From: Terramyces sp. JEL0728
Taxonomy: Eukaryota > Chytridiomycota > Chytridiomycetes > Rhizophydiales > Terramycetaceae
Assembly: GCA_027603945.1 (NCBI GenBank)
Contig: JADIIU010000169.1
Coordinates: 1 to 24,662, forward strand
Length of the DNA stretch: 24,662 nt
Reading direction: 5' to 3'
Shown here one piece after another: positions 1 to 23,354 of the stretch (its first letter is position 1; every line of letters begins with the position of its first letter). Under the pieces are notes generated by a model, which worked only from the letters and a program-made list of their open reading frames with translations, was not told the origin of the DNA and did no database searches. A program made the translations under genes and the position numbers.

Positions 1-2516
1 TTAAATGCAACAGTCAGGGAAAATATCACTTTTGGCCATGAATACGATCCAGTTCGTTATGAAAAAGTCGTTCGTGCTTGTGCGTTGGCCAAGGATTTTG
101 AAAACTTGGATGGAGGTGATTTGACGGAAATTGGAGAAAAGGGGATCAACCTAAGCGGGGGACAGAAACAACGTATCTCCCTTGCTCGTGCGTGCTACTC
201 TCCGGCCTCGATTGTGTTGCTGGATGATCCTCTCTCTGCTGTGGATGCGCCAACAGCCAGATTCCTGCTACACAAGTGTATTCTCGGAGTATTGAAAGGA
301 AGAACCGTCATTCTCGTTTCCCATGCAACCCATTTGGTAGTTCCGTTCGCAGACTACATTGTATCAATGAAGAATGGAGAAATTGTCAACCAAGGTGCAC
401 CAATTCAACTTGTTCAAAACCCAGAAGATGAATCGCTCTTTGGACTTGATTTAACCCGCGATGAGTTTGAAGACATTGAAGAAAGTGAGGTTTCTGTTAT
501 CACTGCAGCTGGCAACGGAACAACCTTGGTCGAAGATGAAGAAAAGGCTACTGGTGCTGTCGAATTCGAAGTTTACTTGGCTTACTTTAGAGCCACTGGC
601 GGGATCTACATGTTCATGATCTTTATGGTTGCGTTCTTGTTCTACGTATCTCTCAAAATCTTCAATGATTGGTGGTTGAAAAATTGGACTGATAACAATG
701 CTAGCGCAGCTGAAGTGTATCAGTTACAGGGTCTTTCAGTTCCATCAACAGTTTTGGATTTCAGCAGCCCTTCATTGAGTATCAGTCAAGTTGGTGCACT
801 GAATAATACCAGCGACAGCGTATATTTTATTTCGATTTATGCATTGATTGGATTTTGTATTGTCTTGGCCAGTGACCTAGAATCTGCTGTAACCTATGTT
901 GGTGCTTACTGGGCTTCTCAGAAACTTCATACTAAACTCCTCAATACTATTTTGAATGCTCCAATGCGATTCTTTGAAACGACACCGATCGGGAGAATAT
1001 TGAACAGATTTTCAAAAGACTTGGACTATATTGATTCAGCAGTAATGGATATGTTGCACTACTTTCTCGATCGTGTATTCAACACTATCATCATCATTAT
1101 TGTAGTGGGTACAATTGCACCAGTTTTCTTACTAGCCATTCCTCCTATTTCAGTAGCTTTTATCTATGTCGCACAAAAATATTTAAAGACTTCGAGAGAG
1201 CTGAAACGATTAGAATCAACCACGATCAGCCCAACTTATGCACAGTTCTCTGAAACATTGACTGGCACCTGTACAATTCGTGCGTATGGGGCAGAGGAGC
1301 GCTTTTCAGAAATGATTAGAAAGAAAGTTGATGATAACCACAAACCATATTATTTTGTTTGGGCAGCGAATCGTTGGCTGTGTCTTCGAACCGATTTAAT
1401 GTCTGCAGTAATTATTTTTGCTGCAGGATTGGCTGTGGTATTCAGTGATATTCCAGCAGGATGGGCTGCATTGTGTATCACTTATGCACTTGATTTCTCT
1501 CGATCATTACTTTTGGTTGTAAGATTACAAGCTGAAGTAGAAATGAAATGAACTCTGGTAATTTCGAATTAACGATAGTCGAACGTGTTGAAGAGTATTG
1601 CAAGATTGAACAAGAGGCTGCTGCGATTGTGGAATCCAACAGACCAAATCCAAGCTGGCCAAACAAAGGGTCGATTGAAGTCAAAAATCTTTCAGTCAAA
1701 TATGCACCAAATCTTCCAAATGTGCTGAATCGAGTCTCATTCAACATCAACCCAAAGGAAAAAGTAGCAGTTGTAGGTAGAACTGGGGCTGGAAAGTCCA
1801 CTCTCTCACTGGCTTTCTTTAGAATCATCCCTCTCTCCGAAGGCAAAATCACGATTGATGGAGTGGATATCAGCGAAATAGGACTGTTTGATCTTCGTTC
1901 AAGACTCACGATAATTCCACAAGATCCTGTTTTGTTCACTGGAACTCTCAGATCAAATTTGGATCCATTGGAGCAAAATGACGATGAAACTCTATGGGAA
2001 GCTCTCAAGAGAGTTCACTTTTTGGAGTCTTTGCAAAATTCGCCAACAGAAGCTTCCTTCTCCTGTGAAGACTCGATGCAGACCCAAGTCATGGATTCAT
2101 CAATTACTCTTGATTATGCTGTGACTGAAAACGGTGGAAACTTTTCCCAAGGACAGCGTCAACTCTTGTGTCTTGCACGGTCATTGATTCAACGCAACAA
2201 AGTAATCTTATTGGACGAAGCTACTGCTTCGGTTGATAACGAGACAGATGCAAAGATCCAAGGTACTATCCGTGCAGAGTTTGCTGACAGCACCATTATT
2301 TGCATTGCCCATCGTTTGCGCACAGTTATCGATTACGACAAAATCCTGGTCTTGGACAAAGGACAGGTTCTTGAATATGGCTCGCCATTGGAATTGATCG
2401 AAAGGAGCACGGTTGGGGTATTCCGTTCAATGTGTGAAGAAACTGGAGAGTTTGAGGAATTGTTGGAGATGGCCAAACTCGCACCTTCAGCTCACAGACC
2501 TCTGATTGACTTGTAA
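1..2516 (+). CDS. ABCC/MRP-type ABC transporter, 3' part (5' end outside window, apparent frameshift)
   Basis: Multidrug-resistance-protein-type full transporter; exports conjugates or drugs across the plasma or vacuolar membrane. The window opens inside the first nucleotide-binding domain: signature LSGGQKQR, Walker B IVLLDDP with the Asp-for-Glu change usual in ABCC NBD1, H-loop SHATH. A second transmembrane domain follows (about 560-1530). NBD2 has Walker A GRTGAGKST, Q-loop PQDPVLF, signature FSQGQRQ, Walker B VILLDEATASVD and H-loop IAHRLRTV, all intact. Frame 1 runs to a TGA at 1549-1551. NBD2 is in frame 3 and its family-conserved MNSVERV motif starts at 1548, so one base is missing around 1543-1550. 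A 21-nt intron (1558-1578) interrupts MNS|VERV. The stop is at 2514-2516 with AATAAA 19 nt further on. The frameshift may be an assembly error in an A-run or a real lesion. Confidence 0.93.
1558..1578 (+). other. spliceosomal intron, 21 nt (ABCC gene)
   Basis: GTAATT...TTAAC-GATAG. Removal joins AAC TCT G to TC GAA CGT and gives the conserved MNSVERV. Length is a multiple of three and it holds no in-frame stop, so its retention would only add seven residues. Confidence 0.8.
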
Positions 2517-2834
2517 TTTGAGTTCATGGACCTAAATAAAGACTGTTCTTTAATTTATATTGCCAGACACGTTGCCTATTTTCAGTTTCCTGACACAATC
2601 AAATCTTCTGCCGGACATATGCAGAGGAATATAAAGCTGATCATTGTTGGAAATTTAAGCAAGCAATTGCAACGCGTGTCGTTGGGAACTGCAATGTGAA
2701 TTTAAATAGCTCGCAGCAGTGAAATGCCAAAAATGAAATATAAACCCACAATTGTTTTGCTTATGGTATTTGGATATTTTAGAACATGTTTTTTAACATT
2801 TTAGAAACGTCATCCTCAGTTTTCACCATCTACC
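2517..2834. other. intergenic region between ABCC and kinase genes
   Basis: 318 nt. It has the ABCC poly(A) signal near its start. The only open frame of note is a 26-codon ORF at 2724-2804 (+), starting MPKMKYKP and mostly hydrophobic after that. It has no recognisable family and could be an upstream ORF of the kinase mRNA. No RNA gene or repeat is seen. Confidence 0.5.
2535..2540 (+). terminator. poly(A) signal AATAAA (ABCC)
   Basis: AATAAA 18 nt after the ABCC stop codon. Confidence 0.55.
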
Positions 2835-5800
2835 ATGTCAAATCTTTCATTGATTGATGATTGCATATCTCTATCTACGAAAATATCGGAAGGAATTGCA
2901 GGAGTTAAAATCAATTGTTATCAGTGTAAACGGTTGGCGGATAGGATTAACATTCTGATGTACAACCTCAAAGAAAGTAAACTAAATGAAAATATTCCAA
3001 ATTATATTCCGCCATTAATCGAATTCCAGAGCTGTTTGGTGGAAATTCTTGGGCTTACAGAAGAACTCACTCGAAATACATGGGTAGTTAGGGCATTTAA
3101 CCGTAATATTGATATGGAAACCTTTTCCGAGTTAAATTCGAGATTATCGGGTTGCAGTCAGCAATTAAATCTCCCTTCCTCGCAGACAATATTTAGCAGA
3201 GATGATGACCTGGATGACCTTCAACAAGATATTATGCTAATAGAAAAAGAAATTGACCAAATCGCTAAAGACGAGTCAACAGATACAGAATCTCGTCCAT
3301 ATAAGCGAGAATTCATCCTCAGAAAGCTAGCTGCAAGGCGGAACCAACTGCTTAACCTTGAAAAGCCCCAATTGCATATCCAGGTTCCAAAGATACCTTT
3401 AAATGCTTTAAATATGAAGGAAATGATCGGCGAAGGGGGGTTTGGGCAAGTATACCTTGCTGAATGGGAAACACAGACAGTAGCTGTTAAAAAGTTGAAT
3501 ATGAAATCAATGACGAAAACACAGCTGGGAGATTTTTATCGAGAATGCAACATAATGTGTAACCTGAGAAATTCAAACACTGTGCTATTACAGGGTATTG
3601 TGGAGGAAAAAGATACTTACATGCTTGTAATGGAATATATGGAAGGGGGATCACTATTTGACTTGCTGCACAGTTCCAAAGAGATAACTTGGGGAGATAG
3701 GGGATTATTTGCTTATGATATCGCATGCGGTATGGCTTATTTACACAAAAGCGGGGTTGTTCACTGCGATTTGAAGAGCCTGAACATATTATTAGATATT
3801 AGAGATACGTGTAAAATTTGTGATTTCGGACTCTCAAAAGTAAAGGTTAATGCAGATTCTGGAATCAAAACAGAAAAAATCGACGATGCATGTGGGAGTC
3901 TTCGATGGAAAGCACCAGAGCTGTTTAAGCCAAACGCCAAATTCACCAAAGAAACAGATGTATTTGCTTTTGCAATTGTATTATGGGAAATTGCAGAAAG
4001 AGAAATCCCCTATGGAGAAAATTTTACCGATAGCCAAGTGGTTAATTATGTGGTAGAAAGAGGGAAACGATTAGAATTGTCCCCAAGCTGTCCAAAAGAA
4101 ATTGAATCTATTATTCAAGAATGCTGGAAGCCCGACCCCAAAATTAGACCGCTGTTTAGCACTATTAGCATTGCTCTGAGTAGCTATAAACCCTCCAAAG
4201 CTGGACCGCTCAGCAATAGAGAAAAGGCGCGAGAAAGAAATCAATCGGTAGTAAGTTTGAAACCAAATCATTCAAAGAAAATATCCCAAAGAACTATAAA
4301 CTCGGAGGCGTTGGAAGAGGTCTCCAACTCTGCAGAATTACTGGGCACACGAGGTATAATTGTAAGGGGAGAAGCTCCTCCAGCCTACGATAGTATAAGT
4401 ACAGCCGATAGAAGAATACAAAACGTCAAAGCAAAGGAGTTCTGGATTGGCAATTTTGGGGGAAACACCCTTCAAGTAGGCTGGGAAGATTTTTATGACT
4501 GGTAACCACAGCTTATTATAGTATGATAAATGCTTTCAATAATGGGAAAGCAGTGAATGAAGACTGTTTAAAAAAACTATTGGCGGATGAAAAAGAAATG
4601 GTGAGACTGAATGCATTTAATCGATTAACGCACAAGTTGGAAGTTTTCGACTCATTATTTGTACCAAAGGAGAACCCCAGTGAAAATGTGCTCTCAAAAG
4701 ATACTTTGACAGCCTCAAGCAACCATTTGTCGCTTTTACCACAAGAAAAGAAGCCTGAACATGAACAAACTATCAAGAGAGGCGGTTCTCATATGTCTCT
4801 TGAAAGTGTAAAGTCTAATTTTTCTGGATCAGTATTCAAGTACTTTCAAAATCCTGTAAAGAAGCCAGAAGAGCAGTCACAGACAAATATCTCCGACACA
4901 AAGAACTCTTTTGTGAAAGGCTTCACTTCAAACGCACTAGAAAAAGTGAGCACAATATCATCCGCTGCCTACAACAAAGCAAACAGCGCCTATGACAAAG
5001 CTGTGCAGAAAGCAGATGTTCTTGCCGCAAATGTCTATCACCAAGGTGTAAATGTGGTGACGAATCCAAAAGACACTGTAGTAAAAGTTGGTACCAATCT
5101 CATTTCCAAAATCAAATTTTTGGGCGATACCCACAAGGATGCATTGGAGCTACCGGATTCTGCTATTTCAACCGAACCACCAAAACTAGCTGAAAAGGTT
5201 CCAAAGCAGAACTGGCAACTAAAGTTCAAAAAAGAAACGGCAAATGTAACTATGCAAATCAATACTTCAATTGGTAACTTTAAAGAAGAAGTCGATTCGG
5301 CCATTGCCCGGCTGTCAGGACGTGAGGACTTTGGCAGCATACCAAATTTTGAAGCCAACGAAAAGCCAGAGAACCCCCCAAGAAGACCTAGTATCAGTAG
5401 ACGATAGTAACTAGTGATAACTTTAGCAGTATAGGAGAAGGTCGACTAGACGAATCGCGAGAAGACAGCAGCCTTCCACAAAGAAATAGTTGCATATACC
5501 CAAAAAAGTAATATCAATTAACTCCAGGGCTGGTATTTTTTCTCAATCACAGTTAGTGTTTCTTAATCTATAGAAAGTACACGCTATTAACTTTAGAGGA
5601 AATATTGAGAATGAGCATACAGAGTACATTATTCTTATTCTAGGATTTTGTAATTAAGCTTTAACTTAGCCATAGTACTGAAGATTTTGAAACACCTCAG
5701 TATACTGATACTAATCTAGAAACTGTACCATCGCTCCTCCTCCACCACCAATGTATATTATTTTGATTGTAGGCCATCGTAATTCTTTGTAACTTTAGAA

Positions 5801-7682: not shown

Positions 7683-8586
7683 ATGTTTGGAGAAGCAAAA
7701 CTTGTGTTTGGAACTTGGAGATTAGCGGACAACTATTCTGGAAACCCAGAGGATGTGCTCAATAGAATCAAAGCATGCTTGGCTCATGGCATTACTTGCT
7801 TTGATTTGGCTGATATTTGTAATTCATCCTAATATAGATGGTGGATACACCTATGAAGAGATGTTTGGAAATGCATTGGCTTTGGAGCCTTCAATTCGTT
7901 CCAAAATCAAGATTATTACAAAGTGCAACATTGTCATCAACTGCCCGGAAAGACCTGATGTTCCAAACAAGTACTACGATTCCAGTGCTCAGTACATCAA
8001 ATGGAGTGTTGAAAACTCGCTGAAAAAGATTCAAACCCCGTATCTCGATTGCCTGTTAATCCACCGGCCAGATCCATTGATGAATGTTGATGAAATGGCA
8101 GAAGCATTCAGAGAACTGAAAGCAGCAGGAAAAGTACAGAGTTTTGGGGTCTCCAACTTTACTACCCATCAATTTGAATTGTTGCAATCAAGATTAGATT
8201 TTTCTTTGGTCGCTAATCAAATAGAATTATCAGTGCTGCACACTCCCCCTCTGTACGACGGAACTTTGGATCAAATGCAGCGATTAAGAGTGCGTCCAAT
8301 GATTTGGAGTCCTTTGGCTGGAGGTAGACTTTTTACAGAGAAATCAGAAAGAGCCCTCTGTGTTGTTGAAGCTCTAAAGAAAGTCGCTGGCGAAATCGGG
8401 ACTGGTATCACTATTGACCAGGTCGCGTTCGCATGGATCCTCAAGCATCCCTCTAATCCTGTTATAGTTGTTGGAACTAATGACTTGAAGCGTCTAGAAC
8501 TTAATGTGAAATCCCAATCCCTTGAACTTAGCCGTCCTCAATGGTTTGCTATCCTTGAAGCAAGCGAAGGCAAAGAATGTCCTTGA
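7683..8586 (+). CDS. aldo/keto reductase (YdhF-like), two exons
   Basis: 294 aa NADPH-dependent oxidoreductase of the aldo/keto reductase superfamily, closest in layout to the bacterial YdhF group. Exon 1 at 7683-7818 reads MFGEAKLVFGTWRL..CFDLADI and exon 2 at 7838-8586 begins YGGYTYEE. A 19-nt intron lies between them. The catalytic tetrad is visible: Asp of CFDLAD, Tyr of ADIYGGY, Lys of IITKCNI and His of CLLIHRPD. The cofactor-side strands include VSNFTTHQF, WSPLAGGRL and VVGTNDLKRL. Without splicing the N-terminus would be a false hydrophobic start at 7753. The ATG at 7683 gives family length (YdhF about 298). The TGA is followed at once by AATAAA, and the next gene ends 12 nt away on the other strand. 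The physiological substrate is unknown. Confidence 0.92.
7819..7837 (+). other. spliceosomal intron, 19 nt (aldo/keto reductase)
   Basis: GTAATTC...CCTAATATAG. Joining T|AT makes the catalytic Tyr codon in ADIYGGY, so the position is fixed by homology. Confidence 0.93.
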
Positions 8587-8603: not shown

Positions 8604-9136
8604 GACCACTTGATTCTCCGTTTCCTTCCCTATCTTGTGAAAAGAATCTTTGATTTTCAAATTGCATCTGCTGGTAAGCTAATAGAGCTTCAGGAGTAAC
8701 CCCAAACCCAGCCGGTGGGAAAAATGGAAACGCTGTTGCTTGATCTTTCTTTGTTTCCTCTCTTGGCACAATATCAATCAAAAAATCGTATTGGTCACTC
8801 TTGGATATTGCTGTAGAGACATCGCTCTTTTGTAGAGTCCGTCTCTTATTTTCTTCAGTGTGTATCCAGGATCGTAACGTTAGTTCCAATATAAACATCT
8901 CGCACGCTTTGGAAAATAATATTGGTGATTCTGCGCTTATCATCATGCTCTTTACATCTTCGTCTGACTTCATTACTTTCTTTATTCGAGCTAAAGGCAG
9001 CTGATGGAATTTAAAGTCTGGTTAGGAAAAGGATACCTATTGGCTCTGACTGCACCTTTTCGTATTGAGAGTGCCAAAACGCTTGCATTAATTCTTGTAC
9101 ATTTGGTGTTTCTTGTTCGTCTTCGTTGAGAGACAT
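8599..9136 (-). CDS. HAP5: NF-YC/HAP5 subunit of the CCAAT-binding factor, two exons
   Basis: 172 aa histone-fold subunit of the trimeric CCAAT-binding transcription factor (NF-Y/HAP complex); pairs with NF-YB and recruits NF-YA. Exon 1 at 9136-9037 carries the leader [15 protein letters not shown] 19-nt intron separates it from exon 2 (9017-8599), which starts [20 protein letters not shown]. The core is nearly invariant: [45 protein letters not shown]. One oddity is that DVKMISAE of the family reads [10 protein letters not shown], two residues longer, between helix 1 and helix 2. A short C-terminal tail is rich in Gln and Phe. Only the spliced form has the conserved [13 protein letters not shown] block. 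The start is the first ATG upstream in frame. The gene sits behind a promoter with three CCAAT boxes. Confidence 0.95.
9018..9036 (-). other. spliceosomal intron, 19 nt (NF-YC)
   Basis: GTATCC...CCTAACCAG on the minus strand. Joins ATA G|AC TTT AAA into [12 protein letters not shown]. Confidence 0.93.
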
Positions 9137-9342: not shown

Positions 9343-12300
9343 ATGATCACCGACGAACCAGACCCGGAATTGCTGTATCAACATAAAGTAAATACAGATT
9401 TCGTAGAACGAGATGCATTCCTTCGACGGCTCCAGTTGCTGTTGAACAATCAAAAACTTCAAGATATGGAGCTCTATAAATTCTTGTACATCCTGGATGG
9501 ATATCAAGAGCGTCCGCAGTTGTTGGATAGTAGCCTGGAAGAAATTGTGTCGCCAATTGTTGAAAAGTGCTTGAGCACAGTAATGAAGTTTGAAAGCAAC
9601 ATTAAAGTCAATGACCAAATAGATCAGGAAATCCGATATTTGTTGCCTCTTTACCGCACAATGAACCACCTATCAAAAGTTAGAGGGCATAAAACTATTG
9701 GTACTTTGTAGATAATATAGTTAAATTCCTGTCCCACCAGGTTTCCCAGCTGGAGCCAAGTTTAGATTTTTTGAATTACATCTCAACAAAGAAAGAGTTT
9801 ACTAGGATCTGGGAAATGACTTTTGTCACCTTATTGTGGGTGTCATTGATTTGTAGGATTCCGTTTGATTTGAAAAAGATTGATTCTGGGTACACTGAGG
9901 ATGGTGTACACGTTCCACTAGTTGAAAGGGTGGTTGGCGTGGTTAAAAAGTACCTAGTGGTGCCGGGCAAAGAGTATGAAGGAGCATATATTCTGGCCAT
10001 GAGATTGCTGACCAGAAAAGATGTGTCAGTAACCCACCTGGCAGACTTTGTACGATGGCAGACGGACCAAATTTCCATCTCTTCAAGCGTGTTTGAACTT
10101 CGTGGACATCTTCGGTGCTTATCCGCCCTATTTAAACATGGCCCAAGAGACATTCTTAGAAGCTGCATTCCAGACATCATGCCAAAATTAGGGCTGAACT
10201 CTTCGATTATCAAACAAAATGGGCTATTGCGAAAGTACGCTGCCAAATTACTCCAGCGTATTGCACTTTGCTCGTTGAATGTCAAGATCGCGGTTTGGAG
10301 ATATCAAAGAGGTCCAAGAATTCTCGCCCAAAATTTGACCAATGTCGTGGTCGAAACAGATGACAAAGAAAGTGATGAACAGGATTTCGAAATTACTGAT
10401 GAGGTCGAAGAAATCCTCGGAACTTTGATCTCGAACTTGAGGGATACCGATACAATAGTCCGATGGACCGCCGCAAAAGGCATAGGTAGAATTTGTAACA
10501 GAATCCCAAAAGACATGGCCGATGAAGTGATTTCTTCTATTTTGGAAATGATGCAAGAAGATGTATACGTTGAAGATGGTGATATCAAAAGATCAAACGT
10601 TTCTTCAGCAAATGATGCAGTTTGGCAAGGCTGCTGTCTTTCGCTGGCTGAATTGTCTCGGAGAGGTCTGTTACTTCCCGAACGGCTGTTGGAAGTAGTT
10701 CCTTGGATCCTGCGCGCATTGATGTTTGAACAAAGAAAGGGTAACCACTCTCTTGGGTCAAATGTCCGTGATTCTGCGTGCTATGTGTGTTGGTCCTTTG
10801 CTCGTGCATATGAGCAGTCAGTGATTACGCCGTTCGCCATTGAGCTAGCACAAACACTTTTGGTAGTATCCCTTACTGATCGTGAAATTTCAGTTCGAAG
10901 AGCTTCATCTGCAGCATTCCAAGAAAACGTTGGAAGACATGTAATTCTTACTAACCAAAGGGACTTTTTCCTCATGGCATTGATATTATTCAAAAGGCAG
11001 ATTATTTTGCCCTTGGCAACAGAAACAATTGCTACCAAGAACTTATCCCTGAATTGGCAGTGTATCCTGAATACCGATGGTCAATCATTGAATTTTTAGT
11101 ATTGCATTGTATTGGGCATTGGGACAAGACTATTAGAGAAGCTGCCAGCGCATCTTTAGGCGAACTTGCAAAGCTATTCCCAGAAGAGTACTTTATTTCT
11201 GCAATTATTCCAGAGCTCATGAGCAACCTCGAATCGGATGATTTGTCAAATATTCATGGCAGTCTGCTGGCGTTAGGTGAAGTCTATTGCGGCACAAGAA
11301 TCAGTCAAAAAGCGAATATCTCACCAGAACTTGAAATCCAAATTGCAACATGCTTGTCCAAGCTAAAGCCAGAATCTTTGGAAACATTTGGCTCCGAGAC
11401 TGTTCGCGAAGCTGCCTGTAAATTTGTATGTTCAATCTCAAGCACAAAGCTCTTCAAGGAGATTCAAACCACCGAATACCACCGTGGGATTTGGCATTTG
11501 TTGACTTCTAGCTTAACCAGAATTGAAGAAATGTTGCACGATGCCGCATCAACTGCAATTGAACAGTTCATGGAGAATGTTGAAATGGACAACGAGATGT
11601 TGAAAGAGTTCTTTGAAAATGCAAGTGTTTCAAAAGATAAGAATGTACGTAGAGGTTATTGCATGGCATTGGGCTGTTTCCCTGCTAAATCTCTGATCAA
11701 AGATATTGATTCGATTGTCACAGTATTAGCTGATGCAGTTGTAAAGCCAATAACGGATACAAACCTGATGAACGATGCTGAGACTAGGAGAAATGCTGTA
11801 AATTCTCTTATCAGCGTGCTGCAAAAAATCCAGCCTTGGTTGCAGGAAGAGAAACCTCAAGGGGTTTTCAAAAGAATCTACACCACCTTCGTCGTTGGCA
11901 TGGAAGATTATACTATTGATTCGCGCGGTGATGTAGGATCTTGGATTAGAGACGGGTCCATGAAAGGTATCGAAATCGTCTTTTCATTTGCAAAGCACCC
12001 GTCATTTGAAGTATCAGAAGAAGAAAGGCTTCAAATGACTCAGCTGCTTGTGCTCTCGTGTCTCGAAAAGATAGACCGTATAAGAGAAACCGCGGGGAAT
12101 GTGTTGATTAATCTATTGGATGATCAACAAATTGAAATTCCATATCGCAAGCTTTTAGTTTCCGCTCTGTATCGGAAATCTGGAACTTGTCCTGTAAACT
12201 GGTTGTATTCCAAAGAAGCATATCCAGCAATGTGTAAATGCTTGCATATTCCAGCCTTCCGAAACTTTGTGGTTACTGGGATTGTGAATAACGTTGGCGG

Positions 12301-12944
12301 GCTTACTGAAACACTTGTAAAAGCGTCTACCAGCAGTTTTTCAGATTTCTTGAATGACTTGCCTAAAAAACTCTGTCGAGATTTGCCAGAAACCACTGCG
12401 CAGGATATCATTGTTTCTATAGACGAGGTGTTTGCCAAGTACCTTGATGATTCACGCATTGCCATCCCATTGCTCGATACTCTGGATCTGTATCTTTCAT
12501 CTGGATTTCATTTTTCAATTAGCGAACCTACGCCTTTGAAAAACATCTTCAACAATCTTAAAAAGGTGGTTTTCAAATCAAAGAACATCAAAAAGCTCAC
12601 TGGTGGAATCAAAGTGTAATTTATTGTAATTTTAGATTTGCTTCCTTTGCTTCCTTGAACGAACCTGATCAACCAGAAATTTACAATTCCATCCAGCGAT
12701 TGGCTCTTGAAAAACTGGTATTGTACCTTGCGCATCCATTCCCAATTGTATTAGTTATTAATTATAGGTTCGCACTGCTTCTTCTGAATCTCTTTATATG
12801 GTATTATCGACCAGTTTGATCATGACCATTGATCCTGAAAAATATACTGAGGCTGAGGAAGTATTGACTACAACTCAATGGGATGCATCAGCTGAAACTT
12901 GCAAAAAGGCAAGAGGGTCCATTTCGAAATTTTTATTGGAATAA
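9343..12944 (+). CDS. TBCD: tubulin-specific chaperone D (TBCD), five exons
   Basis: 1173 aa HEAT-repeat cofactor that captures beta-tubulin and assembles or disassembles the tubulin heterodimer with cofactors C and E and the GTPase ARL2 in the cytosol. Human TBCD is about 1192 aa. Exons: 9343-9700, 9721-10940, 10961-12615, 12636-12747, 12768-12944. Family landmarks across the junctions: VRGHKTI|VKF, LLWVSLICRIPFDLKKID, AASAAFQENVGRH|GLFPHGIDI, ADYFALGNRNNCY and SHWD-like GHWDKTIREAA. The C-terminal exon reads LEKLVLYLAHPFPI|VRTASSESLYM and ends W-x(6)-CKKARGSI. All four introns are exactly 20 nt. The 521-codon frame from 11054 and the stop at 12619 are artefacts of ignoring splicing. The TAA at 12942-12944 lies inside AATAAA, and the next gene ends 9 nt away. 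Confidence 0.96.
9701..9720 (+). other. spliceosomal intron, 20 nt (TBCD intron 1)
   Basis: GTACTT...GATAATATAG. Joins ATT G|TT AAA to give KTIVKF, the family sequence. Confidence 0.93.
10941..10960 (+). other. spliceosomal intron, 20 nt (TBCD intron 2)
   Basis: GTAATTC-TTACTAAC-CAAAG, with the yeast-type TACTAAC branch site. Joins VGRH to GLFPHGIDI. Confidence 0.96.
12616..12635 (+). other. spliceosomal intron, 20 nt (TBCD intron 3)
   Basis: GTAATT...GTAATTTTAG. Joins GT|A after GGIK and opens the conserved C-terminal exon. Confidence 0.88.
12748..12767 (+). other. spliceosomal intron, 20 nt (TBCD intron 4)
   Basis: GTATTA...ATTAATTATAG. Joins HPFPI to VRTASSE as in TBCD homologues. Confidence 0.92.
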
Positions 12945-12953: not shown

Positions 12954-14466
12954 TTAAATGTGTTCATTGTGGGATTTTAGCCAGTCAATTGCTTCCTCTT
13001 TGCTAGGCTCGCCCTTTGCAAGCTGCCATTCGATTAAGCTGTGTAATAACATCCCTACGCGAGGACCTCTTTTGATTTTTAACAGCTCGCCTATTTCGTG
13101 TCCATCAAGTAAAGGCTTCATTTCATATGCGTTGGATAAGCGTTGAGATATAACAGTTTTCATAAAGTTTTGATACTCTTGAACTATTTTAGCTTCCAAT
13201 TCTGGAGTTTCCGTCAACTCAAAGACCAGCGATATCAATATTGCAAGATCCCAGTTGTGTGCTAGTGGCTTTTGTCCTAGTTCACGCACCAACATCCCAA
13301 TCGCTGTTCTATCCGGGTTGTCCAAAGATCGATTAACTTGTTTAACCATTTTTGAAATTTGTTTGGATTTTGATAGCAATTTATGGCAATAATCTCCTTG
13401 TAATGTGCTCAGCTTCAATGAGTGGCAAATGATAAATTTGTCTACTGGATGATCTTTACCCTTTGCTTTGTACGCTAGATTCTTGTATGGTGACACAATT
13501 GCAGCGATATATAGATGTTGGTAATGCTCTGAAAGTCTGAACTTGGTCATCCATGGAACATTGTCCACTGACTCTTTTTTAATCAGTTTTGTTAAAGTTC
13601 TGCATACGCTCAATGCATGCTGGATTTTTGAATGGTCAACAGACACATTTTCTGGAGGAGTAAACACCAGATGATGGAATCCAAAGTCGTACAGTAAGTC
13701 TACTGATCTTGATGGATCTGGACCAGCAAACATTTTTTCTATTTCTTTACCAACCCTTTCTCTGCTCAACTTTTTCGCAAAAGCTAATTGAATTTCGGTA
13801 TTTTGTACTGATTCTGCAATATTGCCTGAGAGCTGAAATCCAAATCGTGTCGCGAACCTAATTACACGCAATATTCTAAGTGGGTCGTCAAGAAAGGTTT
13901 GGTATGGCGATAGTGGAGTTCTGATTAGAATTAGGGTACCTGATCAATGAATTTCTTAAATCGTCGATTCCTTTTCCTGTATAATCTTCCACTTTGTTGG
14001 AATGTAAATTGTAAAACAGTGAATTGATTGTAATATCTCTACGCAGGGCATCTTCCAATGGAGTCCCGAATGTAATTTCTGGATTTCTGGAATCTTCATG
14101 ATAAGTTTCACTTCGTAGATTGACAAAATCAATATCTACCCCTAATATATTTGCAGTTGCAGTTTCTAAATGTTTAGATTTATCAGGGTTGACTTTAATT
14201 TTGCTGATGTTGGACATTAGGTGTCCTTGATTGTGCATCCACTCTTTAACATACTGCGCAAACGGCTCCCCGTTCATTGTATCAATAGCGACATCGATAT
14301 CATTAGATTCGTGGCCCATCAACTTATCTCTAACCCAACCTCCAGCGATTCGCAAATGAATTTTTTCAAGGTGTGGTTTGTTTCGATGGATGGAATCAAC
14401 GACTTGAAGTAGCACACTCTGGATTTTTAGTTCCAAATCAGTTAGTTTTATGTGTGGGACTGTCAT
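12954..14466 (-). CDS. CCA1: CCA tRNA nucleotidyltransferase, two exons
   Basis: 497 aa class II CCA-adding enzyme; adds or repairs the 3' CCA of tRNAs in nucleus, cytosol and mitochondria. Exon 1 at 14466-13940 has the nucleotide-binding motif IAGGWVRD, the metal-binding pair in SNDIDVAID and the RRDITINSLFYN motif, then VEDYTGKGIDDL. Exon 2 at 13920-12954 has TPLSPYQTFLDDPLRILRVIRFATRFGF, split here as TPLSPY, DDPLRILR and RFATRFGF. It then has the helical neck, body and tail region. A 19-nt intron lies inside IR|TPLS. Length fits yeast Cca1 (about 546) and human TRNT1 (434). No strong mitochondrial presequence is seen at the chosen ATG. It is convergent with TBCD (9 nt between stops). Confidence 0.95.
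13921..13939 (-). other. spliceosomal intron, 19 nt (CCA enzyme)
   Basis: GTACCC...TCTAATCAG on the minus strand. Joins ATC AG|A ACT into LIRTPLSPY, the family sequence. Confidence 0.95.
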
Positions 14467-14697: not shown

Positions 14698-15300
14698 ATG
14701 GCGACAGCAGAACATGCATTTTACTGTTTCGATTCAATAATAGAAAAGCTCCAAGGAAAAGTAGCAAAAGGGCCTTTGTTTGAAAATGAAAGCTATCCTC
14801 TCTTTGTAACCTGGAAAAAGGTTGAAGGGAACGACGAAGAATTGCGGGGATGCATTGGAAATTTCTCTCCATTAAAAGTACACGGCGGCCTAAAGGATTA
14901 CGCTCTAATTAGGTAGGTGATTCTAATGATAGTGCATTTAGAGATTCAAGATTCAACCCAATTACTATCAAAGAAGTCTCAAAATTGAAATGCTATGTTT
15001 CCTTGCTGACTGATTTTGAACCAGCAGATAGTTGGAAGGATTGGCAAGTAGGAGTACATGGAATAAGAATAGAGCTGGTGCAAGATGGGAAAAGGTACTC
15101 ATCTACCTTTCTTCCAGAAGTTGCCTCCTCCCAAAGTACTATTTATTAATATAGATTGGACCCACAAAGAGACTGTGAAATCCCTGTTGAGGAAAGCTGG
15201 GTACATTGGGAATGTGGATCTAGTGTTGGACAGTCTAACTGTCGTACGATACCAGAGCTCCAAAGCTCATGCTACGTATCAAGAATACATTGATCGCTAA
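14698..15300 (+). CDS. AMMECR1-domain protein, three exons
   Basis: 187 aa AMMECR1 family protein; conserved from archaea to man, molecular role still poorly known. Exons 14698-14912, 14933-15135 and 15155-15300. Family landmarks: MATAEHAFYCFD, YPLFVTWKKV, the signature LRGCIGNFSPL, GLKDYALI|SAFRDSRF (joined across intron 1), CYVSLLTDFEP, WQVGVHGIRIE, STFLPEVA and Q|NWTHKETVKSLLRKAGY (across intron 2). The ATG at 14698 is the first real ATG in frame and matches the usual family start. The frame is open further upstream to a GTG at 14509, but that stretch shows no conservation I recognise. It is convergent with the IQ protein gene, with 13 nt between stops. Confidence 0.94.
14913..14932 (+). 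other. spliceosomal intron, 20 nt (AMMECR1 intron 1)
   Basis: GTAGGT...TCTAATGATAG. Joins ATT AG|T GCA TTT into the conserved ISAFRDSRF. Confidence 0.95.
15136..15154 (+). other. spliceosomal intron, 19 nt (AMMECR1 intron 2)
   Basis: GTACTA...TTAATATAG. Joins CAA A|AT TGG into SSQNWTHKET. Confidence 0.92.
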
Positions 15301-16065: not shown

Positions 16066-16441
16066 AGCTTAATTTTTGTGCGACAAACTCTTTGCGTGCA
16101 CGATCTAAGAACGCTTCCAAATCGGATGTCACGAATTACTAATTTTTAATGGTAAAAGAGCAGGAAAGACTTTCAGGATCATTGCCGATTCAGTTTGGAT
16201 CATTTCCGCTGGTTTCCAAAGTTATTTTCCAGACTTACTATCTTGTAATAACGAACAGTAGGCACTGTGAATCGTGCTATACTAGTGTACATCCACTCAT
16301 CCTGCTTCATTTTGAAATTGGAAAATTCCGCCCAGGATTTTAGTTCCCAAATATTGGCACAGATTAGTAAATAGGTTACTCTCTCCATGAAAAGCATCTT
16401 GCAGAGACAGCTATAACATAAAAACAATATTTATTGATAAG
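16066..16441. other. intergenic region between six-Cys genes 1 and 2
   Basis: 376 nt, longer than other gaps in the array. Overlapping frames are open on both strands (plus 16149-16343, minus 16427-16200). Neither has recognisable homology, a strong start context or the local intron pattern. The poly(A) signal of gene 2 is at its right end. I see no RNA gene or repeat. Confidence 0.4.
16430..16435 (-). terminator. poly(A) signal AATAAA (six-Cys gene 2)
   Basis: Minus-strand AATAAA 6 nt after the stop of gene 2. Confidence 0.55.
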
Positions 16442-16978: not shown

Positions 16979-17033
16979 TTTTTTGTAAACAAAAAATCTG
17001 TTTTTATTTTTCTTGTCTGAGCCTCACATGTGT

Positions 17034-17441: not shown

Positions 17442-17771
17442 TAGCTGATCTTTTCTGACTGTCCTTTTATCAATCAAAAAGCACAGACATTAATATTAAT
17501 TTAATAGAAACCCGTCGATAAAAGATTTATTTACAAAAAGAGATTTACTACAAGTGGAATTAATAACCAAGTATGCATGACTTGGATTAAGGATTTTACA
17601 ACCCATATCGATATGGCTCAACAATGATGAAATACCCAAACTAAGAAGCGGGGAATTATATATCAGCTGCGAAATGATTGAACATTAGCACTTTATCTTG
17701 ACATTTCCCACTTATTGGAAAAAGCAGACTATAATCCAGCATTAAAAATATTACCACATCTTTTTATTTAA
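17442..17771. other. intergenic region between six-Cys genes 3 and 4
   Basis: 330 nt, AT-rich. Beyond the poly(A) signal of gene 4 at its right end I see no gene, RNA or repeat. It must contain the promoter of gene 3. Confidence 0.4.
17763..17768 (-). terminator. poly(A) signal AATAAA (six-Cys gene 4)
   Basis: Minus-strand AATAAA 3 nt after the stop at 17772. Confidence 0.55.
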
Positions 17772-18191
17772 TTACAATACCATTGCCATTGCTCCAACCA
17801 ACACAGCTCCAATACCGACTCCAGCATTCAAAGCGCTCGCTTTTGGAGTACTAGTAGCGGTAGGAGCAGCTGTTGTAGCAGATGTACTTCCACATGCACC
17901 ACCAGAATATTGCTGGACCAAGCTCAGTTTAGCTACGTTAATAGGATCGTTTTGACAAGCAGATTTTCCATTGGTTACAAACGGTCCAATAAATGCTTGA
18001 CAACTGGCTGTACAAATAACTTGTGCAGATGGAGCACTTGATCCTGACAAATCTAATCCTGGACATGCAACTACCGCTTGTGGCAGTTGGGCAGTGATGA
18101 ATGCTTGACAGGTTGGGTCAGTGGAAGAAATCGCGGTAGATTGTGGTGCTGCTGCAACGATTGAGATGAGAGAAATGATAACTGCTTGCAT
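17772..18191 (-). CDS. secreted six-cysteine protein 4, predicted GPI-anchored
   Basis: 139 aa paralogue. Leader MQAVIISLISIVAAA, then module C-x14-C-x16-C-x3-C-x14-C-x20-C (C28, 43, 60, 64, 79, 100) with DPTCQAF, ACPGLDL, CTASCQAFIGPF and SACQNDP. These blocks are much closer to protein 5 than to proteins 1-3. A short Ala/Thr stalk with TPKAS leads to the C-terminal hydrophobic segment VGIGAVLVGAMAMVL (GPI signal). No intron. The gene starts 172 nt from the stop of gene 5, same strand. Confidence 0.86.
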   Translation of the reverse strand: MQAVIISLISIVAAAPQSTAISSTDPTCQAFITAQLPQAVVACPGLDLSGSSAPSAQVICTASCQAFIGPFVTNGKSACQNDPINVAKLSLVQQYSGGACGSTSATTAAPTATSTPKASALNAGVGIGAVLVGAMAMVL

Positions 18192-18363
18192 TTTACTCTG
18201 TTTCGATTTTCATTCAATTTATGGGTGTCGCCGAAACCGTGGCTTGTATCCTTGACAAAGCCCACGCAAATAGGGGATGTTATGTTTGTAAACAAATAAA
18301 TCAAATCTATAATTTTACTAGTGTATCGCAACGCAATCGTGGTTTATCAATCCATATCTTTGA

Positions 18364-19032
18364 TTATACAAACAAGGAAGCGCAGATCAAGAAAATAGAT
18401 GCACTAGCAGTGGCCCGGAATGAATTTCCCTTTGGTGTATTTGTCGCACTTTGGGCAGTAGTAGTAGCGGTCGCATTAGCATTTCCAGGGCATGCTGCGA
18501 TTGCCGTTGATAATAGTGCCAATTTTTGAGCGGTTGATGGACTGTTTTGACACTGAGATTGCCCATTCTTTGCAAACGGACCTAGAAATGCCGAACAGGT
18601 TGGCTGACAGATTTTACTATAATCCGGGCTGGATGAAGATGGGTCGAATCCTGGACATGCTGCTTGACCTTGTAACGCATTTGCAGCTAAATATGCTTGG
18701 CATTGTGGATCGGCTGCAGAACCAGAAGTACTTGCTGCATCACACGCAGTTAATGCAGTACCAAGCAGCGACAGTTTTTGTTCTGTTGGCGCATCATTCT
18801 TGCAAGCTGACTGAGCTTTTGGGATAAATGGTACGAGGAATGCTTTGCACGATGGAGTGCACAATACAGCTGTGTTTGGTGAACTGGAGTATAAATTCAA
18901 GTTTGGACATGCTTGATTCATTGGGAATGATTCCCACGCCAAGAATCCTGCACATACTGGGTCAGTAGGGCCCGTTGCAGCTGTCTGTGGTAGTGCTGAT
19001 GACAATCCAAAGAATGCAGAGCTGAAAATCAT
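18364..19032 (-). CDS. secreted protein 5 with two six-cysteine modules, predicted GPI-anchored
   Basis: 222 aa. Leader MIFSSAFFGLSSALP. Module 1 (C27, 42, 58, 62, 77, 97) has spacing 14-15-3-14-19 and module 2 (C111, 126, 142, 146, 161, 181) has the same spacing exactly. Repeated blocks are DPVC/DPQC, ACPNL/ACPGF, CTPSCKAFLVPF/CQPTCSAFLGPF, SACKND/SQCQNS and EQKLSLLGTA/AQKLALLSTA. This is a clear internal tandem duplication. An Ala/Thr stalk with NTPKG precedes the hydrophobic tail SIFLICASLFV. It groups with protein 4. No intron. Its ATG lies 110 nt from the stop of the BCAS3-like gene. Confidence 0.87.
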   Translation of the reverse strand: MIFSSAFFGLSSALPQTAATGPTDPVCAGFLAWESFPMNQACPNLNLYSSSPNTAVLCTPSCKAFLVPFIPKAQSACKNDAPTEQKLSLLGTALTACDAASTSGSAADPQCQAYLAANALQGQAACPGFDPSSSSPDYSKICQPTCSAFLGPFAKNGQSQCQNSPSTAQKLALLSTAIAACPGNANATATTTAQSATNTPKGNSFRATASASIFLICASLFV

Positions 19033-19128
19033 TGGAAATTTCCGTCCTTTAGTGCTTTAAATCACCGAGAGCCTGAGCTTCCGCGTAAAAGAGAAGCACT
19101 TTTGAAAGCAGAGTGGATTTACATGCTA

Positions 19129-19134: not shown

Positions 19135-19142
19135 TATTTACA

Positions 19143-21421
19143 CTATGAATCTTCACCATTTAAATCAACAACCTCTGGCTTTTCTTGTACTGGAACTTTG
19201 GTCTTTTCTTTTTTCCATTTTGTTGTCAGGGTGGAAATTCGTTTGGCAGAATCCAAAAATCCAGTTAGCAGTGAGGGAGATGGGGGAGAGGGAATGGATT
19301 TTGAAGATACAATCAGGTGAAATCCTTCTTCAGTTTGGTAAAATGATTCATGGCCTTGTGGGGGAGGAAGTTCAGAATCCATAGCTGATTGCATTCCCTC
19401 GGTAATGTCAATTTTCGCATCCAATATACTAGGTTAGCAGCATTTTACCTATGTGGAGCCAGAACAGGATTTTTCAAAACTATATTTTTCGCTATTGGTA
19501 ATTGCAACTCATCCCTTTCAGGTTCCTCCTCAAATACCTGCAAAGTGCACAGCGGTTTTGACCATATATACGGTAAAGCCAAGTTGCAAGTATTGATTTC
19601 TATTTTCGATGGCCAGATTGCTTCTGGTTTTACTGCAGCAATTGCGTCGTCTTTGATGAACTATTGTTAAATGGGATTAAACCTTTACTCCACATTCTTG
19701 CCAGCTTGGATTTCTACAAACAGTCCACTCTGAGATTTTTGTGACAGACATTTTCATTTTCTTTGTAATTGCGCTGGTGACAATAGCAGGAACTGAAGGA
19801 TTACTTGGCAATTCTGGCTGCACGTACATATCGACATGTATTAGTGTAATTTTTCCGTACGGATCCCACGATAGTAAAGGAATCCTTTTCTGCAGAGTTG
19901 GATCCATGGATTTCACTTTGTTTCCGCATTGCCTGATAAAAGTAGTCATTGGTATATTTTTATATGCATCAACAAAAGCGTCATCATAGCCCATATCACT
20001 TGTTGCGTTGTCGACGCTTGACGATAACCTTATGTTTACAGGGGAAGATCCAAGTGTCTCCTGTGAATTTTCTACTTGGAACAACGATTTTACAACTTGA
20101 AGAGAGTTCCTAGAATTTACTTTTACGCTGGAAGTTTGGTTAGCATTCGACAAGTTATCCATGTGGTATAAATGGTTCGTTCCTCGAGAGGTGGAGCATG
20201 ACAGCCAATGGCCGTCATTACTTATTTCCAAATGAGTAATGACGGCAAAAGTGAATCCTCGTCCAAATTTCATCACACACGTTGGAGGTTGCTTTACACG
20301 AGAAAAGCAATTCATAATTGACCAACAATAAATATTGGTTCCTATAGAAGAAGCTGTAAATATCATTGTTTCTGCAGGGTTGAATTTAATCTGTGATATT
20401 GGATGCTTGTGTGGCCTAAACAGTGAAAGAACTGGAAAGTCTTTGGAATTTCTAGAAATCTTGCGAATCATCACCACTCCATCATGCTCACTGACACGCT
20501 CCACTTCTGCATTGATTATATCCTTTTTATCGCCATTGAAATAGTTTTGAATAGCATTGTATCCCATCCCACCAACAAGGGTAACGCCATCTACAAGTTC
20601 TTTTGCAGCTTTCACAGCGAGTTCGCCGGCTACTTCTCCAGCAGTCTTGTTTTTATAATCATCCATATGAAACATATCTTGATCGTCCTGCGTTTGCTGA
20701 GGTTGTACCGCAGCCGTACATGTATAACAAATTGAGCGCAATGCAAGATCAAATTCGGGTATCCCGGCAGTCGGCGAAGGCCATAAATCATCAAATGATT
20801 TCAATAATGAAAAATCTAGCGTTAATTGGCATCAACCAGCTGGAGAGTATATCTGCAGTGTTTCAGGACCAGAAATACAGATGGCGATCTTTGTAGATTT
20901 AACAACTTCAATTTCAACATTGCCAAAATCCAGTGTATTCACAAAACTTAATGTCACCAACGAAAATAGGTGAACCTTATACTGAGGCACCGTTTCCGTC
21001 TCGTCCAAACAAGATTCGATCATCATTACCAGGGGTCTTTGCAAAGCAAATTTATCATCTTTTACTTCCGGATCCTTTAGCAAATCTATTGCGATAATTT
21101 TCGACAGGTTGCTCTTGATGGATACCATTTCATTTACTTTATCTCCAAGTGCATCAACGTGCCATATTTGAAAGCCATGTTGATATCCAAGTAACAGCAG
21201 TAATCTATGTCAATAACGAAATACTTTTGATCCAAGTGTGCAAACCTAGCACAGATTATCTCTTCCGACTCTGACTTTACTGATTTCTTTGGTTTTTGAT
21301 TAAGCATATTCGAGAGAGCATTCCCTATATTGGCAAGGCCGGAAGGCGATGACGAAGGCACCATGACTGATTTCCTACCTTCATGTTGTATATTGACTGG
21401 GATTTTTGATTGTTTTAACAT
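19143..21421 (-). CDS. BCAS3-like WD40/PROPPIN-related beta-propeller protein, five exons
   Basis: 731 aa. Animal BCAS3 binds phosphoinositides with PHAF1 on phagophores and affects the cytoskeleton; plant homologues are ATG18g/h-like. Exons: 21421-21225, 21204-20837, 20815-19683, 19660-19449, 19428-19143. Landmarks: CARFAHLDQK|LLLLGYQHGFQIWHVD, FSLVTLSFVNTL, AICISGPETLQIYSPA, LFRPHKHPISQIKFNP (family PH..PIS.L.F.P), TASSIGTNIYCWSIM, RGFTFAVITHLEISNDGHWLS with TSRGTNHLY. The C-terminal exons include APH|SILDAKIDITEGM and end KPEVVDLNGEDS. The N-terminal ATG at 21421 is the first ATG in the open frame; a further 5' exon cannot be excluded. The intron at 19661-19682 could instead use a GTAAAG donor 6 nt upstream (28 nt, also in frame). 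Confidence 0.82.
19429..19448 (-). other. spliceosomal intron, 20 nt (BCAS3-like, last)
   Basis: GTAAAA...GCTAACCTAG. Joins AG|T after LAPH and opens the C-terminal frame. Confidence 0.85.
19661..19682 (-). other. spliceosomal intron, 22 nt (BCAS3-like)
   Basis: GTTTAA...TTTAACAATAG. Joins GVK to FIKDDAIAAV. An upstream GTAAAG donor would make it 28 nt and also stay in frame. Confidence 0.72.
20816..20836 (-). other. spliceosomal intron, 21 nt (BCAS3-like)
   Basis: GTTGAT...ATTAACGCTAG. Joins GCT G|AT into SPADFSLLKSF and removes an in-frame TGA. Confidence 0.85.
21205..21224 (-). other. spliceosomal intron, 20 nt (BCAS3-like, first)
   Basis: GTATTT...TTGACATAG. Joins AA|A into DQKLLLLGYQHGFQIW, the conserved first propeller blade. 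Confidence 0.92.
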
Positions 21422-21678: not shown

Positions 21679-23354
21679 TTAAATTTTTGAAATATCTCTT
21701 CCAAAGACAAAAGTCTTTGTCCAGTCCCAAGCCAACAGTACTCTGGTTCTAAGAGAAACTTGGCGGGAAAGATAAGCACTTCTCCATAAAAAGAATGCGC
21801 TGAAACCGCCAAATCCTTTGCCTTTACCCAAATCCAAAACAGCCGCTTCTTATATTAATTATTAGTACCTCCTCCAACGTACGAAAAATTTCCTAAATGC
21901 TGATACTTGAAATTCCTGAACCTTTCTTCCACGATATCCCAATCTCGGGAATCGTACTTGCCGATCTTGTTGAGTTTGTTTGCCAAATACTTTCCTTGCT
22001 GTGATGCGACTTGAGCTGTTGCTGGTAACGTGGTGGTCTTTGCTGCAGTCTTTTCAAACCACGTTTTTAATTCTTGTAATTTAACTGGTGCATCACCAAT
22101 ATACTGCTTTAATCCTTCCAAGAATGAATGGGACTGCGGGTGTTTTTCTGTAACCTGGTTGATAATGGAGTTTAATTTATCAACAGACATGTCTTCGTTG
22201 CATTGTGATAGAATCAGATCACCAATATTTGGCAGGACAATAGTTGCACAATCGCCTAATGCGTACGCATCCTTTGCGCCAATCAAACGTAATCCTGAAT
22301 CGACATTTAACGCACGTTTGTGGGTTTGGTCTGTGAGTTTATCAGAGAGCTTTTGAGTGGTTTCGTGCATGGCGATACCTGTGCTCCAAACACACAATCC
22401 ATAGTCTGTAACATTTGTTTCCAGAGATCCATCTGTCTTCTTTACCTTATACGTAATTGAGGTCTTGTCAACAGACTGGACAAATGCCTGAGTAATGACT
22501 TTGATGTTTTGTCTCTTGAATCTTTCCTCGGTGTATTCAGAAATCTTTTCATCAAAAGTGTTTAAAATGTGAGCAGACCCTTGGATCAATATTACTTTGA
22601 CATGTCGTTTAACAAGATCTGGGTAATAGTAAACCATATCTCTGTTCAAGTAATCGTAGAGCTCTATGTGTTAATTCAATTAACCAGCTGAAAATTCCTA
22701 TTCTTAACAATAAACTACCACTCCCGTAGGGCCACCGCCAACCACGACAAAGGTAAGTAATCGCTGTCTTTCTTGCTCGCTGACGATTGGGTTGCTGGCT
22801 TTTTCAAAAATTGTCGTTAATCTATCGCGAATGTTACGAGCATCTCTTATAGTCTTGCAAAAATAGACGTTTTCCTTGACTCCAGGTATCCCATAAGTTT
22901 CATTTCTTGCACCTAAAGCAACTACCAATTTGTCATATGGAATTTCAACCTTGTTGTTATCCGTATCAACTGCCAGTACTGTCTTTTTATCAAAATCTAC
23001 ATCCTCTCCAGATGCAGCATAATAATGAGCTCCAGAATGCCGACATATTTTCCGTGTGCTTTCCAGCAACGATCGATATTCAACAGTGCCCTATTTTAAT
23101 AGTCAGATACGGTAGTTGCCTATATTAGTGATAATTACTCCTGGTAATAGTGGAGTGAACAGAAAATAGTTGGTAGGTGAAATTACTATCGTTTCAAATT
23201 GATTCTTCTTTAAATTCTTCAAGATGGTTGTTGCTGCCCATCCAGTGCCAAGGATTAATAGCCGAGGTTTCTTTTTTGTTTCCCATGAAGACCACGGGAA
23301 CTGATTTACTATTGGGATGGTTGAATATCGTGTACGAGATACGATTTTTTGCAT
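21679..23354 (-). CDS. type II NADH:ubiquinone oxidoreductase (NDH2), six exons
   Basis: 524 aa single-subunit rotenone-insensitive NADH dehydrogenase; passes electrons from NADH to ubiquinone at the mitochondrial inner membrane without pumping protons. Exons: 23354-23139, 23119-23111 (9 nt), 23090-22719, 22697-22685 (13 nt), 22663-21869, 21848-21679. Landmarks: Arg-rich start MQKIVSRTRYS (possible mitochondrial presequence), FAD motif LLILGTGWAATTI, NYFLFTPLLPG|ATT|GTVEYRS, VVALGARNETYGIPGV, NADH motif VVVGGGPTGV|EFSA|ELYDYLNRD, YALGDCA, and the C-terminal membrane-anchor region YVGG|EAAVLDL...GGFSAFFLWRSAYLS ending FGRDISKI. No EF-hand insertion. The ATG at 23354 is the only ATG ahead of the FAD motif in an open frame. 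Confidence 0.95.
21849..21868 (-). other. spliceosomal intron, 20 nt (NDH2, last)
   Basis: GTACTA...TTAATATAAG. Joins GGA G|AA GCG and restores the conserved NDH2 C-terminus. Confidence 0.94.
22664..22684 (-). other. spliceosomal intron, 21 nt (NDH2)
   Basis: GTTAAT...ATTAACACATAG. Joins GCT G|AG CTC into FSAELYDYL. Confidence 0.95.
22698..22718 (-). other. spliceosomal intron, 21 nt (NDH2)
   Basis: GTAGTT...TTAAGAATAG. Joins GGGPTGV to EFSA; unspliced it gives a stop after four codons. Confidence 0.95.
23091..23110 (-). other. spliceosomal intron, 20 nt (NDH2)
   Basis: GTATCT...TTAAAATAG. 3' flank of the 9-nt exon; joins ATT to GTVEYRS. Confidence 0.93.
23120..23138 (-). other. spliceosomal intron, 19 nt (NDH2, first)
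   Basis: GTAATT...CACTAATATAG. 5' flank of the 9-nt exon; joins FTPLLPG to ATT. Confidence 0.93.

Follow-up and report, generated by a model that had tools for sequence, protein, structure and literature searches.

Ultrashort spliceosomal introns, of at most 25 nucleotides (nt), are known from ciliates, from mikrocytid parasites and from the nucleomorphs of chlorarachniophytes, and are compared here with 29 predicted introns of 19-22 nt in a contig of the chytrid Terramyces sp. JEL0728 (GenBank assembly GCA_027603945.1, contig JADIIU010000169.1), the whole of which, 24,662 nt, is referred to below as the window. Chlorarachniophyte nucleomorph introns measure 18-21 nt (PMC10245619), mostly 18-20 nt (PMC5014332); those of the mikrocytids Mikrocytos mackini and Paramikrocytos canceri measure 16-17 nt and those of heterotrich ciliates 15-16 nt (PMC10245619); those of Paramecium and Nyctotherus are about 25 nt long (PMC5014332). 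Nucleomorph introns of 21-27 bp are spliced with lower efficiency (PMC5014332). A prediction made earlier from the letters of the window alone (the original prediction) had pointed to nucleomorphs and Stentor as precedents, but omitted the mikrocytids (PMC10245619). Among fungi, the short example of a survey of 644 genomes is Cryptococcus neoformans, with a mean of 63 bp, and introns near 20 nt are not mentioned in the accessible portions of that survey (PMC8476143); nor does a fungal case appear in the corresponding portions of a comparison of Ascetosporea (PMC11069148) or of a Rhizophydium genome paper (PMC13391722). A literature search, in whose coverage subscription papers were mostly absent, did not turn up introns of this kind for any chytrid or other fungus.

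The window is nuclear DNA of a fungus, as the original prediction had supposed in speaking of a fungus-like nuclear genome: taxonomy places Terramyces in the Terramycetaceae (Rhizophydiales, Chytridiomycota), two public proteins of strain JEL0728 are 100% identical to window genes (over 93% and 71% of the queries), and a 1358-residue stretch of Prp8 from the parent assembly (15,016,339 bases in 231 contigs) is 98% identical to that of Boothiomyces sp. JEL0866. In their near-equal lengths and narrow spread, the Terramyces introns resemble those of nucleomorphs, but the nucleomorph, the relict nucleus of an alga, has just over 800 or more of them, whereas the fungal nucleus of Terramyces, with a genome of 15.0 Mb, has an estimated 14,000. 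With mikrocytid introns they share ultrashort, uniform length and a common sequence; M. mackini, however, has 224 predicted introns, none of them in metabolic enzymes, and a parasite spliceosome with 17-19 identified proteins, whereas among 109 Terramyces gene models decoded from 200 kb (see below) 91 carry an intron of some kind and 74 an intron of 19-22 nt, metabolic genes such as NDH2 are affected, and genes for SF1, U1C and LUC7 and a U2AF-like gene were found. Terramyces, which we take to be a free-living fungus, would share with the heterotrichs the occurrence of ultrashort introns in a free-living organism, although heterotrich introns are shorter still and belong to ciliates whose cells and genomes are very large. 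Paramecium and Nyctotherus are likewise intron-rich with a single ultrashort class, but are ciliates, with introns about 5 nt longer; C. neoformans, a fungus, likewise has abundant short introns, but of three times the Terramyces length. What is new for a known phenomenon is therefore an ultrashort-intron genome in the fungi that is intron-rich and has no clear loss of splicing factors among those tested.

The segments are almost certainly U2-type spliceosomal introns of the nuclear genome of Terramyces sp. JEL0728, where introns have been reduced to a minimum of 19-22 nt, the sole clear length class detected. All introns discussed here are predictions from the genome sequence, by reading frame, motif and homology. 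Nine gene models were built for the window, and the introns listed from them re-derive exactly the number and lengths originally proposed: 29 introns, of which five have 19 nt, 18 have 20 nt, four have 21 nt and two have 22 nt. Every one begins with GT and ends with AG; the GTA donor ascribed to almost all of them holds for 25, and GTT is used by the remaining four. The 3' ends are TAG (24 introns), CAG (three) and AAG (two). The branch site is YTRAY-like, and its A, positioned by a scoring rule that always yields some best site, lies 13 nt from the first G in 16 introns, 14 nt in 12 and 15 nt in one, and 4-7 nt from the last G in all 29. Nineteen introns match TACTAAC in at least five of the seven letters, and the pattern GTAN7YTAAYN3AG occurs six times in the window, compared with 0.16 in shuffled sequence. 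The GTT donors (at 5552, 19682, 20836 and 22684) all belong to introns of 21-22 nt, and possibly represent a minor donor class tied to longer introns. Several mini-exons lie between two ultrashort introns, at 5574-5576 (3 nt), 5644-5649 (6 nt), 5773-5778 (6 nt), 22685-22697 (13 nt) and 23111-23119 (9 nt).

With these segments removed, eight of the nine models, carrying 28 of the 29 introns, have no internal stops, and this open frame together with homology supports the original identification of the segments as introns. A Pfam scan, which took in the TBCD, CCA-adding enzyme, AMMECR1, NDH2, aldo/keto reductase, NF-YC and BCAS3 models and left out those of the SEL1-kinase and ABC transporter genes, placed 14 of 28 junctions inside a domain match (TBCD 2/4, CCA-adding enzyme 1/1, AMMECR1 2/2, NDH2 5/5, aldo/keto reductase 1/1, NF-YC 1/1, BCAS3 2/4), two of them (CCA-adding enzyme and first BCAS3) at the extreme edge of the match. 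The motif joined in the CCA-adding enzyme is presumably a conserved one. Orthologs bracket three further junctions, those of the SEL1-kinase gene at 4502 and 5407 (Boothiomyces JEL0838 protein P0127, aligned) and that of BCAS3 at 19661 (Globomyces protein P0122, by eye). All four BCAS3 joins are present in a public protein from this contig (P0121), so that some of these introns already stand in public gene models. The basis for the other 11 junctions (one in the ABC transporter gene, two in TBCD and eight in the SEL1-kinase gene) is the open frame and the motif. The individual introns are listed in Table 1.

Table 1. Predicted introns of the Terramyces sp. JEL0728 window, with the evidence for each junction
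Gene	Length (nt)	Positions	Strand	Evidence and remarks
ABC transporter	21	1558..1578	+	MNS|VERV restored (by eye); frame break upstream unmended
SEL1-kinase	20	4502..4521	+	ortholog P0127: DCFITAFNN vs DCMINAFNN
SEL1-kinase	20	5407..5426	+	ortholog P0127: SRRTSISEAR vs SRRYSIGEGR
SEL1-kinase	20	5508..5527	+	frame open, motif
SEL1-kinase	22	5552..5573	+	GTT donor; frame open, motif; weakest parse, 3-nt exon next; decoder chose otherwise
SEL1-kinase	20	5577..5596	+	frame open, motif
SEL1-kinase	20	5624..5643	+	frame open, motif
SEL1-kinase	20	5650..5669	+	preceded by 6-nt exon; frame open, motif
SEL1-kinase	20	5700..5719	+	frame open, motif
SEL1-kinase	20	5753..5772	+	frame open, motif
SEL1-kinase	20	5779..5798	+	preceded by 6-nt exon; frame open, motif; KRRNSLFEIKTK downstream agrees with P0127
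Aldo/keto reductase	19	7819..7837	+	within PF00248 match
NF-YC-like	19	9018..9036	-	within PF00125 match
TBCD	20	9701..9720	+	within PF23579 match
TBCD	20	10941..10960	+	within PF25767 match
TBCD	20	12616..12635	+	frame open, motif
TBCD	20	12748..12767	+	frame open, motif
CCA-adding enzyme	19	13921..13939	-	PF01743 match edge; splicing joins DDPLRILR
AMMECR1	20	14913..14932	+	within PF01871 match
AMMECR1	19	15136..15154	+	within PF01871 match
BCAS3	20	19429..19448	-	public protein P0121
BCAS3	22	19661..19682	-	GTT donor; P0121 VKFIKDD; P0122 EKFVEE (by eye)
BCAS3	21	20816..20836	-	GTT donor; within PF21034 match; P0122 DFSLLYSF
BCAS3	20	21205..21224	-	PF21034 match edge; P0122 LFLLLGYQHGFQVW
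NDH2	20	21849..21868	-	within PF22366 match
NDH2	21	22664..22684	-	GTT donor; EFSAE-LYDY within PF07992 match
NDH2	21	22698..22718	-	13-nt exon next; GGGPTGV-EFSAE within PF07992 match
NDH2	20	23091..23110	-	within PF07992 match
NDH2	19	23120..23138	-	9-nt exon next; TPLLPG-ATT-GTVEYRS within PF07992 match

The sample beyond the window was a single piece of 200 kb (C1:1-200,000), or 1.3% of the genome. Segments in it that begin with GTA and have YTAAY 1-6 nt before AG, counted at lengths of 12-90 nt, number 58 at 19 nt, 74 at 20 nt, 33 at 21 nt, 18 at 22 nt and 16 at 23 nt, compared with approximately 10 (5-16) per length elsewhere in the range of 12-60 nt; across the entire genome, the 21-nt form GTAN8YTAAYN3AG occurs 1730 times and the reversed pattern 210 times. 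A frame-bridging test, which assumes neither a motif nor a length and is blind to introns flanked by short exons, collected GT-AG segments that link a pair of open frames, each 60 or more codons long and each closed within the segment: there were 34 such segments of 20 nt and 35 of 21 nt, versus 2.2 and 6.0 for other dinucleotide pairs, and after normalisation 85 of 19-22 nt versus 9.8 in the control (standard deviation, sd, 3.4). When the loci that can be solved at 19-22 nt are taken out, the bridging bins up to 200 nt fall approximately within 2 sd of the control. A gene decoder with a length prior that is flat from 15 to 80 nt placed 416 introns in the 200 kb, 200 of them at 19-22 nt (38, 94, 50 and 18 at 19, 20, 21 and 22 nt, respectively) and about 3.4 for any other single length. 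The sample (200 kb out of 15.0 Mb) and the one pattern followed genome-wide show one narrow length peak and no clear second class; 19-22 nt is the single clear intron length class of the sample, and the peak that the original prediction expected is present there. Introns of this class are estimated to number about 13,995 in the genome by area, or about 14,166 by pattern (23 versus 3 in 200 kb), at a predicted density of about 1.29 introns per kb of predicted coding sequence.

Four C1 models, picked by eye from 20 listed among 46 multi-intron models, were checked against Pfam. An alpha/beta hydrolase has all three of its introns, each of 20 nt, within the domain match, and an eIF3g-like gene has one of two (22 nt) there; a cytidylyltransferase has introns of 21 and 20 nt and a doubtful one of 18 nt; and a kinase has introns of 20, 21 and 23 nt together with decoder introns of 39-70 nt, which are probably wrong. 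For the C1 model at 115337, an in-frame intron of 18 nt is probably due to a decoder error.

In the splicing machinery encoded in the same assembly, U2 RNA and Prp8, two of the components that the original prediction proposed to inspect for changes, look conventional. The U2 RNA matches the full model (140 bits), with the branch-binding stretch GUGUAGUA intact. Genes for Prp8, LUC7, SF1 and a U1C-type zinc finger are present, as is a U2AF-large-like gene (251.7 bits over model positions 68-471, which does not reach the curated cut-off of 310.3), so that besides Prp8 four of six protein families were matched; the in-frame stops within the U2AF-large-like piece are expected for an intron-bearing gene. 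Prp8 itself has four introns of 22, 21, 21 and 21 nt (approximately its first 150 codons are outside the analysed piece), and its joins are identical in the Boothiomyces protein apart from a nearby I for V. Strict patterns for the first three of these joins are matched in all three cases by the Boothiomyces protein, in two by that of a bird and in one by that of Backusella, the three misses being gapless substitutions by eye; 9r8v, considered as chytrid Prp8-like by its bit score, was discarded because that score is the sum of two stretches. LUC7 has three introns, of 20, 21 and 19 nt, and a frame open throughout. Given the presence of U2 RNA, Prp8, U1C, LUC7, SF1 and a U2AF-large-like gene, the system looks like splicing of the usual U2 type in which the length limit is extreme.

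Several results weigh against this picture of a single ultrashort class spliced by ordinary means. The bridging bins beside the peak are raised (8-16 nt, 24 versus 12.0; 17-18 nt, 15 versus 5.4), as is that of 31-45 nt (126 versus 97.7, sd 13.0); alternative GT or AG dinucleotides at the same loci would produce such raised neighbours. After removal of the loci that 19-22 nt can solve, the 23-30 nt bin stays slightly high (30 versus 19.3, sd 5.2), which makes a minority of slightly longer introns possible, and 8-16 nt leaves a residue of 15 versus 8.2 (sd 3.6). The splice-site matrix of the decoder was trained on 79 bridging segments of 19-22 nt from the same 200 kb and is not independent of them, and the sample is one contiguous stretch. 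Motif-free decoders of coding potential gave only a small peak at 20 nt and, being too weak (0.23 nats per codon), were replaced by frame bridging, of which a first and too strict setting had yielded 20 pairs, none of them at 19-22 nt. Searches of the genome for U1 RNA and for the remaining two of the six protein families, the N-terminal domain of U1-70K and RED, found none of the three, each a weak negative. U6 RNA was not found either: two near-identical sites scored 27 bits against a cut-off of 44 and were dropped as coding-looking by eye, and six sites with one mismatch to a U6 pattern were dropped because Rfam gave no U6 match in any of the six loci.

The alternative that survives best, although it is unlikely, is that some segments have been mis-parsed, the real introns being fewer and some of them longer (45 nt at 5552-5596, 28 nt in BCAS3, about 420 nt from 5407). 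The longest of these would follow the public protein P0126 (2835-8586; 1611 residues), which omits the multi-intron stretch of the SEL1-kinase gene from 5407 to about 5828 and passes straight from RRY to LFEIK; P0126 is also a fusion of the SEL1-kinase, metallo-beta-lactamase-fold and aldo/keto reductase genes, and the ortholog P0127 speaks against it at both ends of the skipped stretch, having sequence that matches the skipped exon as well as the KRRNS exon end. Within that stretch the weakest parse is 5552-5573, after which comes an oddly small exon of 3 nt, together with the adjoining 5577-5596: the frame would also be kept by a single intron of 45 nt, and the decoder took a different path through 5322-5556, whose introns at 5322, 5429 and 5533 were dropped as a lower-scoring path than the one chosen. 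In BCAS3, the presence of GTAAAG 6 nt 5' of the donor makes 19661-19682 ambiguous with a parse of 28 nt, but that parse breaks a KF which is kept, by eye, in P0122, and the ortholog thus favours 22 nt. No longer length class is conspicuous in the 200 kb. The original statement that no longer intron is needed is therefore true of the present parse, with ambiguity at 5552-5596 and 19661-19682.

Other candidates were rejected in the opposite direction, as introns that need not exist. The NF-YC candidate at 9082-9100 was dropped because the frame is open without its removal, and decoder introns at 7471, 12234 and 20688 (21 nt each) were dropped because the frame stays open if they are retained; the segment at 12234 lies within a TFCD_C match and that at 20688 is retained in P0121. 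An N-terminal intron in BCAS3 is apparently unnecessary according to P0122, by eye.

Far less probable is a non-spliceosomal removal of the segments, whether by an endonuclease and ligase as for tRNA introns, by self-splicing or by elimination at the level of DNA. It gains its appeal from the distance of 13-15 nt, far under the limit of about 50 nt that human extracts require between the 5' splice site and the branch site (PMC6692369), a contrast from which the changed length limits of the original prediction are a fair inference. Yet GT-AG ends accompany a branch-site motif at constant spacing, and a canonical U2 RNA and spliceosomal genes are encoded in the same genome. No self-splicing intron of 20 nt is known. 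The notion that assembly indels or pseudogenes create false frame breaks, for which the ABC transporter gene with its one frame break lacking a convincing intron might speak, can be dismissed as very improbable indeed, since the breaks fall on one motif and one length class genome-wide and four such introns are carried by the gene for Prp8, a protein essential in other organisms. That separate one-base break in the ABC transporter gene, at about 1541-1549 and shortly 5' of its intron, has the look of a slip in the assembly; decoder introns at 1408 (score 8.8) and 1519 would jointly bridge it and may offer a two-intron alternative, but would presumably remove conserved-looking ABC sequence.

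As U2-type introns, the segments would be removed by the usual two-step lariat reaction of the major spliceosome. In the human B complex, the U6 helix spans 17 nt and the U2 helix 14 nt, the gap between the two having space for about 21 nt, and Smu1 and RED are needed for short human introns (PMC6692369). Given 13-15 nt from the first G to the branch A, the Terramyces U6 and U2 helices would be shorter than the human ones; because U1 and U2 would hardly fit together on 14 nt, either the 5' site and the branch site may be recognised sequentially, with U1 and U2 probably acting in turn, or the U6 and U2 helices may be shortened. Beyond GTA, the 5' site becomes weak (in the decoder matrix, A at +4 in 60%, T at +5 in 50% and T at +6 in 64%), which would suit a low dependence on extended pairing with U1. 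As RED was undetected, the Smu1/RED route is unsupported here, though weakly. The full proposal, that an otherwise well-equipped spliceosome of a gene-rich, free-living fungus removes some 14,000 introns of fixed 13-15 nt spacing without simultaneous occupancy by U1 and U2 or extended U6 and U2 helices, through sequential or remodelled recognition, and that this state has a fungal origin separate from the ciliate, rhizarian and nucleomorph cases, seems to us evenly balanced between being right and wrong.

Elsewhere in the window, the minus strand at 15550-19056 holds a row of about five similar-looking small open frames; they have a high Cys, Ser and Thr content, show recurring Cys spacing and look secreted by eye, and the one at 18364-19056 is apparently duplicated internally. 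A tRNA gene at 23531-23615 (Rfam, 52 bits), whose anticodon was left unnamed by ARAGORN, may hold a small intron of its own. A Cys-rich open frame with a membrane-like C-terminal segment (24043-24660) runs past the end of the contig.

Gene finders can fuse or truncate genes with such introns, as the public model P0126 shows. The intron lengths of Terramyces are near the shortest known in any organism, and suggest that tiny introns arise in fungi too. Work on the lower limit to intron size, which such tiny introns offer a way to study, and on why certain lineages come down to it has so far had only ciliates, intracellular parasites and one kind of relict nucleus to draw on. Terramyces sp. JEL0728, presumably a cultured strain to judge from its JEL number, is a chytrid, with well-studied fungi among its relatives, that has U1-associated factors, SF1 and a U2AF-like gene, and would allow biochemical and cryo-EM tests of that limit.

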